Positions 4,544 to 35,992 of a stretch of DNA of 64,000 bases are shown here, in pieces. The position numbers and the translations under genes are program-made. This DNA comes from Anaerolineales bacterium. GTDB taxonomy: Bacteria; Chloroflexota; Anaerolineae; Anaerolineales; Villigracilaceae. The notes below the pieces were generated by a model that was not told the DNA's origin, did not search any database, and worked only from the letters and a program-made list of their open reading frames with translations. The stretch spans positions 124,001 through 188,000 of the forward strand of contig JAIXKJ010000001.1 of assembly GCA_026928255.1 (NCBI GenBank). The letters run 5' to 3'. Every line of letters starts with the position of its first letter. The stretch's first letter is position 1.

Positions 4544-4673
4544 TTTTTTCTCCTTGTGAAAAGATGCAGACAACGAGGCGTATTATATCCTTTGCTTTTT
4601 ATTTAGCGGCAGGAAAAGGTTGGGAATAAGGGGAAAAGAAAATCGGATAAAATGAGATTTGAAAGGAGAGGTT

Positions 4674-4931
4674 ATGAACGAAAAACTTGAAACGCTTTTA
4701 GAGCAAGTGCGCGAAGAACTGCAAAAAATGGACAAGGCGGACGCCGAGAGTTTGCAATTGTTGCAAAGTTTAGAACGCGACATTCAAACGCTGCTGGAAA
4801 AATCTGAAGCGCAAGCGCCGACGATAATAGACCAAATCCAAGCGGCGATTGAACGCTTCGAGGCGGACTATCCCGCGTTGACCGATTTGCTTTCAAAAAT
4901 TTCGGCGGTGTTGAGCAACGCTGGAATTTAG
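4674..4931 (+). CDS. DUF4404 family protein
   Basis: 85 residues from the ATG at 4674, which has GAAAGGAGAGG 3-10 bases upstream. Two amphipathic helical blocks rich in Leu, Glu and Lys (LETLLEQVREELQKMD and IQAAIERFEADYPALTDLL) match the small all-helical DUF4404 family, of unknown function. No membrane segment. The gene is monocistronic and converges on the rhodanese gene across a 15-bp-arm hairpin. Confidence 0.8.
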   Translation: MNEKLETLLEQVREELQKMDKADAESLQLLQSLERDIQTLLEKSEAQAPTIIDQIQAAIERFEADYPALTDLLSKISAVLSNAGI

Positions 4932-4937
4932 AAAAAT

Positions 4938-4974
4938 CGCAAAGGCGCAAAGGCAAAAACTTTGCGCCTTTGCG
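4938..4974. terminator. Bidirectional hairpin between convergent genes
   Basis: Perfect 15-bp arms (CGCAAAGGCGCAAAG and its complement) around a 7-base loop, between the DUF4404 stop and the rhodanese stop. Runs of A and T flank it on both sides, so it can end transcription from both directions. The GCGCCTTTGCG core is itself repetitive and recurs near 37530. Confidence 0.7.
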
Positions 4975-4988
4975 GTTAAGTTTTCAGA

Positions 4989-5456
4989 TTACGGCTCGAC
5001 GGGGTAGCCCGCGTTAATCCACGCTTCAAAGCCGCCGAGAATGGGATGAACGTTTGTAAATCCGTGTTGGTTGAGGATGAACGCCGCACGGGCGCTCGAT
5101 TCTTCGCTCGGTCAGGTGCAGTAGGTGATGATCCATTCGTTCGGGTCGAGTTCGCCGACTCGCACTTCCAACTCGGCCAGCGGAATATTAATCGCGCCGA
5201 CGATGCGCTTTTGGGCGAACGAGTCGGCGGAGCGCACGTCCACGAAGCGCGCTTGCTTTGCGTCAAACGCGGACTTGGCCTCAGCCAACGAGACGCGCGC
5301 AATTTCGGGGTGCGTCTCCTCTTCGTGCGAGGCGACGTTTGGCGCGACGGGCGAGACGTTTTGCATGGCGAGCAAAAAGCCGGCGACGAGCAACAGAAAT
5401 CCGCCGCCGATAAAAAGAAAAATCGGAAAAGGCGGGCGTTGTTTGTTTTGCGACAT
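4989..5456 (-). CDS. Membrane-anchored rhodanese with in-frame TGA (possible selenoprotein)
   Basis: The frame from the ATG at 5456 runs 155 codons to a TAA at 4989, with one in-frame TGA at codon 115 (5114-5112). Residues about 10-31 are a membrane anchor (PIFLFIGGGFLLLVAGFLLA). The rhodanese domain follows: FVDVRSADSFAQKRIVGAIN, then WIITYCT, the TGA, PSEESSARAA, and the C-terminal GGFEAWINAGYPVEP, all intact. From memory, relatives of this subfamily have YCxCP here, so TGA stands where a second Cys is expected. A SECIS-like hairpin lies at 5079-5097. The alternatives are selenocysteine, a fresh nonsense mutation, or a sequencing error (TGC or TGT to TGA). The ATG follows the ATPase stop by 8 bases with AAGGAT upstream, so it is co-transcribed with the metal pump. 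Confidence 0.7.
5079..5097 (-). promoter_or_regulatory. SECIS-like hairpin downstream of the rhodanese TGA
   Basis: In the mRNA sense, GAGCGCC pairs with GGCGTTC (7 bp, one G-U pair) around the loop CGTGC. The loop begins 22 bases after the TGA and has G at its second position. These values fall inside the loose consensus for bacterial SECIS elements (loop roughly 16-37 bases after UGA, a G in the first two loop bases). GC-rich coding DNA forms such stems by chance, so this is suggestive only. Confidence 0.4.
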
Positions 5457-5464
5457 AGAAAATT

Positions 5465-7816
5465 TTATCCTTGTTTATAACTTAATAAACGCAGCGCGTT
5501 GGCGACGACCACTAGCGTGCTGCCTTCGTGAAAGATGACGGCGACGCCAATGCCGACCAAACCAGTCAGCGAGGCGATCACCAAAAGCGCAATTACGCCG
5601 AGCGAGACGTAAAGATTTTGCACGATGATTTTGCGCGTGGCGCGCCCCAACCCGACGGCGAACGGCAGTTTGGAAAGGTCGTCGCCCATCAGCGCCACGT
5701 CGGCGGTTTCGAGCGCCACGTCCGTGCCTGCGCCGCCCATCGCAATGCCCACCGTCGCGTTCGCCAGCGCGGGCGCGTCGTTCACGCCGTCGCCGATCAT
5801 CGCGGTTTCGCCGTAGGTTTTTGTCAACTCGCGGATGATGTCTAACTTATGCTCTGGCAGCAAGTCGGCGCGGAACTCCGTCAGCCCAATTTGCGCGGCA
5901 ATTGCGGAAGCGGCGCGGGCATTGTCGCCGGTCAACATCACCGTGTGCTTGACGCCGATTTTTTTCAGCGCCTCCATCGTCGGCGCGGCGACGTCGCGCA
6001 AGGTGTCCGCCAGCGCAATCAGCCCCAACGCCGATTTTCCCCGCGCGACGAACATCAACGTTTTGCCTTCGCCTTGAAGCGCTTGCGCTTTTTCAATTAA
6101 TGCGGATGGAAGAGCCGCCCCGACTTCGCCCATCAACTTTTGGTTGCCAACCCAAAGCGCTTCGCCGCCGAGAGATTCGAAAGCGGCGCGCAAGCCGCGC
6201 CCGGTCAGCGCTTCAACCTCGTCTGCAACGCGGACGGCGATTCCCCGTTCCTGCGCGGCGCGGACGACCGCTTGCGCCAGCGGGTGCGCGGAACGCGATT
6301 CCGCGCCGGCGGCGAGCGCCAGCAAATCCGCTTCGGCGCTTGCGCCTTCGTCGAGCGGAACAACATCCGTTACCTGCGGCTGACCGTGAGTCAGCGTGCC
6401 CGTTTTATCAAAAGCGACCGCTTTCAACAAGCCAAGATTTTCAAGGTGCGCCCCGCCTTTGATTAACACGCCGTGCCGCGCCGCTTGCGCTACGCCCGCC
6501 AAAATGGACGCGGGCGTCCCCAGCGCCAACGCGCAGGGCGAGGCGGCCACGAGCAAGGTCATCGCCCGCAAAAACGATTCGCGGAAAGAAAGCCCAAACA
6601 GCGGCGGGACGAAAATTGCCAGCGCGGTAACGACGAAAACAGCCGGCACAAACACGCGCTGAAATTTGTCCACCGATTGTTGCGTCGGCGATTTTTGCGC
6701 TTGCGCCTCTTCGACCATTTTCATCACCTTTGCCAACGTCGAATCTTTGGCGAGGCGCGAGACCTTAACTTCCAACGCGCCCTCGCCGTTGACCGTCCCC
6801 GCGAAAACCGAATCGCCGACGGCTTTATCTACGGGCAGCGATTCGCCGGTGACGGAGGCTTGGTCTACGCTCGATGCGCCGCTTAAAATTTCGCCGTCAA
6901 TCGGGATGCGAACGCCAGGGCGGACGATGACCACGTCGGACAGTTGCAACGCGCCGACTGGCGTCTCTTGCTCTTTGCCGTCCCGTTTGACCAAAGCCGT
7001 TTTCGGCGTCAGGTCGGCTAAGGCGCGGACAGCGGCGCGCGCGCGGTCTAGCGCGCGTTCTTCCAGCGCGTGACCCAAACTGAAAAGGAAGAGCAGCAAC
7101 GCGCCTTCCGCAAATTCGCCCAGCGCCGCTGCGCCCAGCGCCGCCATGACCATCAGCAAATCGGTGTCAAAATGGCGCTCGCGGACGGCGTGCCAAGCGT
7201 GGAGCGAAACGTCCCAGCCGCCGAAGAGGTAAGCGGCGAGATAAAAGCCGACGCTGACGAGTTGCGGAAAATGGAAGAACGCGCCGCCCGCCCAGACGAT
7301 TAAGGTCAGCGCCCCCGCCAGCAGGCTAAAAATCAACACGCGGTTTTCTTGCCATTGGGCTTGCGCTTCGTTAAGCGGAATTTGATAGCCAAGCGAGCGC
7401 ACGCGCTTTTCGACGGCGGCGCGATTCGTTTTGCGTTTGTCATACTCGACCGCCATGCTTTCAGCCGCGTAGTTGACGCTGACCGAAAGCACGCCGTCCA
7501 TGCGCCCGACGCTGTGTTCGACGACCAACGCGCAATCGGAGCAGTCCATGCCTTCGATGCGGATGATGCGATGGTGAAAACGGTTGACGATTTCCGCGCC
7601 CGCTCGCTCGGCGAGGCGCTTCACGTCGGACAAATTAAGCGCGTTCGCGTCGTAATGCAAACATAAATTGACCGGCGATTTCTCGCGCTCTAAGTGGGCG
7701 CGCAAAATTCCCTTGCGGTTTTGCAGCGCGGACTCTAAACGGTCGAGACATTCGTCTTTTTCGTTTTCGACTCCCGGCAATAAAAGCGGAAGTTCCAGTT
7801 TGACGGTTTGCTCCAT
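5465..7816 (-). CDS. P1B-4-type heavy-metal exporting ATPase
   Basis: 783 residues. Order: a ferredoxin-like metal-binding domain lacking Cys (about 5-80), a second one with GMDCSDC (89-95), membrane helices, the actuator TGES loop, the metal-site motif [10 protein letters not shown], the phosphorylation site [11 protein letters not shown], the TGDN and [11 protein letters not shown] hinge motifs, and a last helix with [19 protein letters not shown] in the sixth helix plus HEGST near the end is the P1B-4 signature (CoaT/CtpD-like, exporting Co, Fe, Ni or Zn), rather than the CPC of copper or Zn/Cd pumps. It follows an ArsR/SmtB repressor and precedes the rhodanese, so metal-induced detoxification is likely. 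RBS AAGGAAAT lies next to an 18-bp palindrome. Confidence 0.92.
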
Positions 7817-7957: not shown

Positions 7958-8248
7958 TCATCCGTGCTGAATGTGATCCCAACCCATCGTGAACAAATGC
8001 GAAACGTGTTCGTCCGCGATGGAGTAAAAAACCTGCCGCCCCGATTTGCGCGCGCGGACGATTTGCATTTGGCGCAGTCCGCGCAGTTGGTGCGAGACGG
8101 CCGATTCGCTCATGCCGATTCCCTGCGCGATGGCGCGCACGCTCATTTCGCCGCCCATCAACTGGGCGATGATACGCACGCGGCTGGCGTCGCTGAGGGC
8201 GCTAAAAAGTTCGGCAAGTTTGACGGCTTTAAGTTCGGTCAGTTTCAT
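7958..8248 (-). CDS. ArsR/SmtB family metal-sensing repressor
   Basis: 96 residues, a usual length. Winged-helix DNA-binding domain: LFSALSDASRVRIIAQL, the recognition helix region MSESAVSHQLRGLRQ and the wing VRARKSGRQVFYSI. The C-terminal helix DEHVSHLFTMGWDHIQH carries Asp and several His in the spacing of the alpha-5 metal site (D-x-H-x10-H-x2-H type) that binds Zn, Co or Ni in SmtB, CzrA and NmtR. It lacks the alpha-3 CxC of ArsR/CadC. It is the first gene before the P1B-4 pump, and a 12-2-12 type operator overlaps its start region, so it probably represses the operon until metal binds. Confidence 0.9.
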   Translation of the reverse strand: MKLTELKAVKLAELFSALSDASRVRIIAQLMGGEMSVRAIAQGIGMSESAVSHQLRGLRQMQIVRARKSGRQVFYSIADEHVSHLFTMGWDHIQHG

Positions 8249-35964: not shown

Positions 35965-35992
35965 AAAATGACCGCCGTAAGGCGGTCATTTT
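35965..35992. terminator. Bidirectional terminator between rnj and mutY
   Basis: Perfect 12-bp arms AAAATGACCGCC / GGCGGTCATTTT around GTAA, right after the rnj stop. The mutY stop codon (35988-35986) lies inside the 3' arm, so the hairpin serves both convergent genes. Confidence 0.88.

Follow-up and report, generated by a model that had tools for sequence, protein, structure and literature searches.

A probable selenocysteine-containing, membrane-anchored rhodanese encoded beside a heavy-metal ATPase in an Anaerolineales bacterium

A minus-strand gene at 4989-5456 of the analyzed stretch of Anaerolineales DNA (64,000 nts, hereafter the window) very probably encodes a selenoprotein, a rhodanese in which the in-frame UGA at codon 115 would be read as selenocysteine (Sec). 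The conservation of this TGA in relatives, a complete set of Sec-decoding genes in the same genome and a SECIS-like structure downstream of the codon all support the selenocysteine interpretation that had been suggested in an initial annotation of this DNA. The features of the gene are as follows.

4989..5456 (-), Sec-rhodanese gene; 155 residues including the putative selenocysteine at 115, with an N-terminal membrane anchor followed by a single rhodanese domain
5112..5114 (-), UGA codon for the putative selenocysteine U115 (motif Y112-C113-T114-U115-P116); every close relative has TGA here, and 10 of the 80 broader loci among the matches listed have Cys
5118..5120 (-), TGC codon for C113, the canonical catalytic Cys of rhodaneses; the whole alignment has Cys here, replaced by Sec in some relatives
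5079..5097 (-), bacterial SECIS-like stem-loop, with a 7-bp stem here and the loop CGUGC at 5090-5086; 17-35 nts after the first base of the UGA
4932..4974 (-), intrinsic-terminator-like hairpin read from the sequence, with a perfect 15-bp stem and then ATTTTT, directly 3' of the TAA
5358..5420 (-), predicted N-terminal transmembrane helix (residues 13-33), with basic residues ahead of it

Reading of the minus strand from the ATG at 5456 to 4989 gives MSQNKQRPPFPIFLFIGGG...EWIITYCT-TGA-PSEESSARAAFILNQHGFTNVHPILGGFEAWINAGYPVEP-TAA. The initial annotation had placed the TGA at codon 115, two codons past the catalytic Cys, and had counted 40 more residues to a TAA without a frameshift, and both statements hold: the triplet lies at 5114-5112 in the context TYC-T-TGA-PSEE and is followed by 40 sense codons and the TAA at 4991-4989. 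The Pfam Rhodanese family (PF00581; 60 bits, cut-off 22) covers residues 57-148 of the read-through translation on both sides of the TGA, and the conserved domain end, GGF.AW..AGYP, lies 3' of it. Since the terminator-like hairpin is found just after the TAA, the transcript apparently ends there and not at the TGA. An AlphaFold2 model from 24 relatives, in which U was modeled as C, contains a confident rhodanese domain (pLDDT of about 97 from residue 51 on, 87 for the whole model) and a helix at residues 13-33, and its matches in the PDB are rhodaneses. By both the PF00581 cut-off and the fold, the protein belongs to the rhodanese superfamily.

Comparison of codon 115 in close relatives, which had been proposed as a check, revealed TGA rather than only Cys codons, in genes that are not decayed. 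When 298 genomes of the same class were searched, all of the best 50 homologues had the in-frame TGA, and the first match without it appeared at E = 8.9e-19; in the 44 of these class loci that were read, the active site is C[TA]U (42 loci) or UTU (two loci). Relatives at 35-60% identity keep both the TGA and the coding sequence on its two flanks, which excludes a chance in-frame TGA. We also scanned GTDB species genomes with a DNA pattern carrying TGN at the key codon, which allows Sec, Cys or Trp. A sample of 80 loci among the matches listed comes from at least seven phyla (Chloroflexota, Acidobacteriota, Rokubacteria, Myxococcota, Nitrospirota, Thermodesulfobacteriota, Pseudomonadota and others) and comprises 70 loci with TGA, nine with TGC, one with TGT and none with TGG. 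Thus, as is expected of a bacterial selenoprotein, an in-frame UGA occupies a position at which homologues have Cys. The earlier expectation that this position is normally Cys (YCxCP) is correct insofar as a Cys form, YC[TA]CP, exists in other phyla, but the close relatives have TGA. In this class, the relatives that lack Sec carry a single active Cys, set in a CRxGxRS-type loop. In a tree of 124 sequences, which rests on few columns and has many weak branches, the Sec/Cys state needs at least six changes.

Six relatives (L066, L067, L214, L215, L216 and L217) have TGA at both active-site positions, giving a putative double selenocysteine, UxU (YUTU); a SECIS-like stem-loop follows in these genes too, in the position seen in the other relatives. 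Neither the paper search nor the accessible part of the review PMC13188914 yielded a UxU rhodanese. Two other variations were observed among the relatives. Three loci (L218, L219 and L224) have a longer loop in which Sec immediately follows Cys (YCSDCUPP, YCGRCUPP and YGDRCUPP), and a double CxxC zinc-ribbon-like start (FCPNCGAKL...FCPSCGA) precedes the membrane helix in the Chloroflexota relatives L084, L085, L090, L091, L032, L045, L053 and L064.

The region downstream of the TGA was examined in 111 distinct Sec sequences. In 88% of them, five or more pairs form a stem at exactly the same position, whereas the expectation is 4.3% (sd 1.9%, maximum 11.7%, 300 draws) under a null model that keeps the amino acids and redraws synonymous codons from local usage. 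The loop CGUGY occurs in 88% of the Sec sequences versus 14% of the redrawn ones, and the Arg codon is CGT in 100 of the 111 Sec sequences versus three of the 10 Cys sequences, in which the codons are relaxed. Compensatory swaps are seen at the top pair (C-G, G-C and T-A) and at the fourth pair (C-G, T-A, G-C and A-T). The free energy of the single stem-loop of the window is unremarkable compared with shuffles (z -0.33), and an Rfam scan of the region gave no SECIS family match, only chance matches. Because the single copy is not unusually stable, the SECIS call rests on comparison across sequences. On that comparative basis, the stem-loop that closely follows the UGA is a SECIS element, maintained by compensatory changes and by synonymous codons that have stayed fixed.

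The genome from which the window comes (2.7 Mb, 99% complete) contains all four genes for which a search had been recommended: tRNA-Sec (74 bits, cut-off 47; anticodon TCA by ARAGORN), SelB (338 bits), SelA (531 bits, about 1.6 kb past the right edge of the window) and SelD (363 bits; L021, G000 C2:506137-507069). SelD has one in-frame TGA of its own and is probably a selenoprotein itself. SelB is above the cut-off in 239 of the 298 genomes of the class and is so common there that its co-occurrence with the Sec-rhodanese adds little. The genome also has prfB (release factor 2), and TGA ends other genes, so UGA is not generally reassigned. Of the stop codons in the window, TGA is used least (two of 39 genes of at least 200 codons) and is rarer there than in other Anaerolineae loci (149 of 402). 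A second candidate for readthrough, a MutY-like gene ending with TGA at 35986 and having 126 open codons beyond, was rejected; the MutY-like protein ends where the TGA lies, and the stretch beyond it does not look like coding sequence.

Two explanations without selenocysteine were weighed against these data. According to the initial annotation, a fresh nonsense mutation or a read error in an ordinary rhodanese, which would leave it truncated, was an equally simple explanation. A single change does convert TGC or TGT to TGA, and Cys versions of the protein exist, but the TGA conserved in relatives refutes this equality: a read error could not recur as the identical triplet in dozens of independent genomes, and with the downstream sequence intact, the SECIS codons frozen and the Sec machinery complete, the truncation reading can practically be dismissed. 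It is also very improbable that UGA specifies Trp or Cys, whether because the code has changed more widely or because a suppressor tRNA is at work. The rarity of TGA stops in the window would suit such a change, but prfB is present together with tRNA-Sec, SelA, SelB and SelD, TGA still terminates genes such as the MutY-like one, none of the 80 loci listed has TGG, and the SECIS-like element is conserved. Sec is therefore the preferred reading of codon 115.

The predicted helix would anchor the protein in the membrane, and paralogues have a lipobox-like LAC[NQ] at the same place. Both kinds of anchor, the single helix and the lipobox, point to an outward-facing domain, and from the predicted topology we infer that the rhodanese domain lies on the outer face of the membrane.

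Two genes precede the Sec-rhodanese gene on the same strand, in the order regulator, ATPase and Sec-rhodanese, and the three likely form one operon.

7958..8248 (-), ArsR/SmtB-family metalloregulator, first gene of the likely operon
5465..7816 (-), P1B-type heavy-metal ATPase with an N-terminal HMA domain (GMDCSDC), the membrane motif SPC and HEGST near the C-terminus; 8 nts upstream of the Sec-rhodanese gene

At 19 of 124 loci, the Sec-rhodanese gene has a metal ATPase gene no more than 5 kb away, compared with about 1% expected from the density of these genes in the family (about 0.8 per Mb; 44 over the cut-off in 15 genomes, about 53 Mb). The neighboring pumps are of several subtypes, including SPC/HEGST and CPC types, which argues against a single inherited arrangement, although the 124 loci are not independent. 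Further metal-related neighbors (PCuAC, SCO1, CopC and a cation-efflux protein) were observed at single loci each. The gene thus shares its likely operon with a pump and a metalloregulator, an association that recurs in relatives and is that of a metal-homeostasis operon. The link to a metal pump and the membrane anchor had been flagged initially as new; both are real and recur, and a literature search for a metal-pump link of Sec-rhodaneses found nothing. An analogy with thioredoxins near the mycobacterial P1B4 pump CtpD found no confirmation when looked for and is not used as evidence here.

The same genome has a second Sec-rhodanese (L057, G000 C8:548722-549078) with a lipobox-like N-terminus and the motif YCTURNE. 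It has no metal pump beside it but adjoins an M3-family peptidase, an arrangement that recurs in other genomes of the family; a role with metals may therefore not extend to all of these proteins. Other neighboring genes were also recorded. At L066, a methyltransferase (L066:9396-10154), which we take to be arsenite-methyltransferase-like from its SCCSC N-terminus, lies directly upstream of the double-Sec rhodanese, with a copper-type ATPase downstream. In the window, a small convergent gene of the DUF4404 family (4659-4931, plus strand) lies just downstream of the operon.

CxU rhodaneses as such are already known. They are catalogued in NCBIfam as NF041203 (rhodanese_LYCAU, '(seleno)protein'), and the accessible part of PMC13188914 lists a 'Rhodanese-like domain-containing protein form 3, CxU' and attributes it to Zhang & Gladyshev 2005; the CxU motif is also given in PMC9312934. 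In their accessible parts, neither article assigns a function to these proteins. The window protein shares with NF041203 a single rhodanese domain and a UGA-encoded Sec two residues past the canonical Cys (C113-T114-U115), and NF041203 is its best NCBIfam match, though its score (68.4 bits) is below the cut-off of 115 bits. The Chloroflexota relatives L115 and L103 also score below 115 (70 and 78 bits, respectively), and sequences of Desulfobacterales, Desulfarculales and Nitrospiraceae from the scan reach 167-183 bits. The window protein further differs in having an N-terminal anchor, CTU instead of CAU, and a position among other Chloroflexota in the tree. Judging from sequence features, it is related to the NF041203 kind and would work like it, yet it falls below the membership score.

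Other selenocysteine rhodaneses are more different. Forms 1, 2 and 4 (UxxS, UxxG) also carry Sec in a rhodanese domain, but the motifs listed in the accessible part of PMC13188914 have no Cys two residues ahead of the Sec, whereas the window protein keeps the canonical Cys and would have Sec as a second chalcogen. TsoB (NF045694), a rhodanese/DsbD-fusion-like protein with two Sec residues, is matched by the window protein with 21 bits only; the latter has no DsbD-like part, and its motif is CxU rather than UxxxxU. NCBIfam also includes an ArsR-type regulator family, TsoR. Canonical single-domain rhodaneses (GlpE, PDB 1gmx; 3gk5) have the same fold (1.4 Å to 3gk5 over about 100 columns), but the active-site loop of the window protein is two residues longer than the CRxGxRS-type loop of the relatives without Sec and holds the CxU. 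We found no description of the Chloroflexota branch with its anchor and metal-pump link.

Based on these observations, a mechanism may be proposed. SelB and tRNA-Sec would decode UGA 115 as Sec, guided by the stem-loop within the coding sequence 17-35 nts downstream, and the product would be a single rhodanese domain held by one N-terminal helix on the outer face of the cytoplasmic membrane, as the inferred topology suggests. Its active-site loop would contain a Cys-Thr-Sec pair, in which Cys113 forms the persulfide and Sec115, two residues on, either joins Cys113 in a selenenylsulfide or accepts or reduces the Cys113 persulfide, allowing a fast redox or sulfur-transfer cycle. The protein might thus act as an extracytoplasmic thiol/persulfide reductase which, made together with the ArsR-controlled P1B pump, keeps thiols or metal sites reduced or frees metal-bound sulfur in metal stress. 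Such a redox/persulfide role is quite possible, and we favor it tentatively.

It is rather unlikely, but deserves consideration, that Sec serves instead as a soft-metal ligand, with the CxU binding an exported metal or metalloid and passing it between the P1B pump and outer-face carriers without redox catalysis. The recurrent neighbors, namely ArsR regulators, several types of metal pump and, at single loci, PCuAC, SCO1, CopC and the cation-efflux protein, agree with this idea, and for several metal-linked families the accessible part of PMC13188914 raises metal binding as something that Sec may do. Against this putative site, the protein has a rhodanese fold and keeps the canonical Cys, both of which suit sulfur chemistry, and the paralogue group beside the M3 peptidase has no metal genes nearby. 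The UxU relatives are compatible with the redox role and the metal-ligand role alike. A selenium-dependent switch, in which low selenium yields a membrane-anchored fragment ending at Thr114 and selenium yields the full enzyme, appears improbable. Every Sec UGA competes with termination, prfB is present, and such a switch is compatible with a selenoprotein; but there is no sign of selection on the 114-residue fragment, and the terminator-like hairpin is located 3' of the TAA.

These proteins could form a widespread Chloroflexota clade of membrane-anchored Sec-rhodaneses that acts as a selenium-dependent outer-face partner of metal export, with a tunable chalcogen pair (CxC, CxU or UxU) as its site and with the UxU of six genomes as an undescribed catalytic or metal-binding site; we offer this broader view with caution, as a quite possible one. 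Standard gene calling stops at UGA, so members of this widespread selenoprotein branch are likely annotated as truncated rhodaneses in uncultured Chloroflexota, Acidobacteria, Rokubacteria and others. The swaps among CxC, CxU and UxU provide a natural series for asking why a rhodanese uses Sec, and the recurrent P1B pump link points to a selenium-dependent step in extramembrane metal handling.
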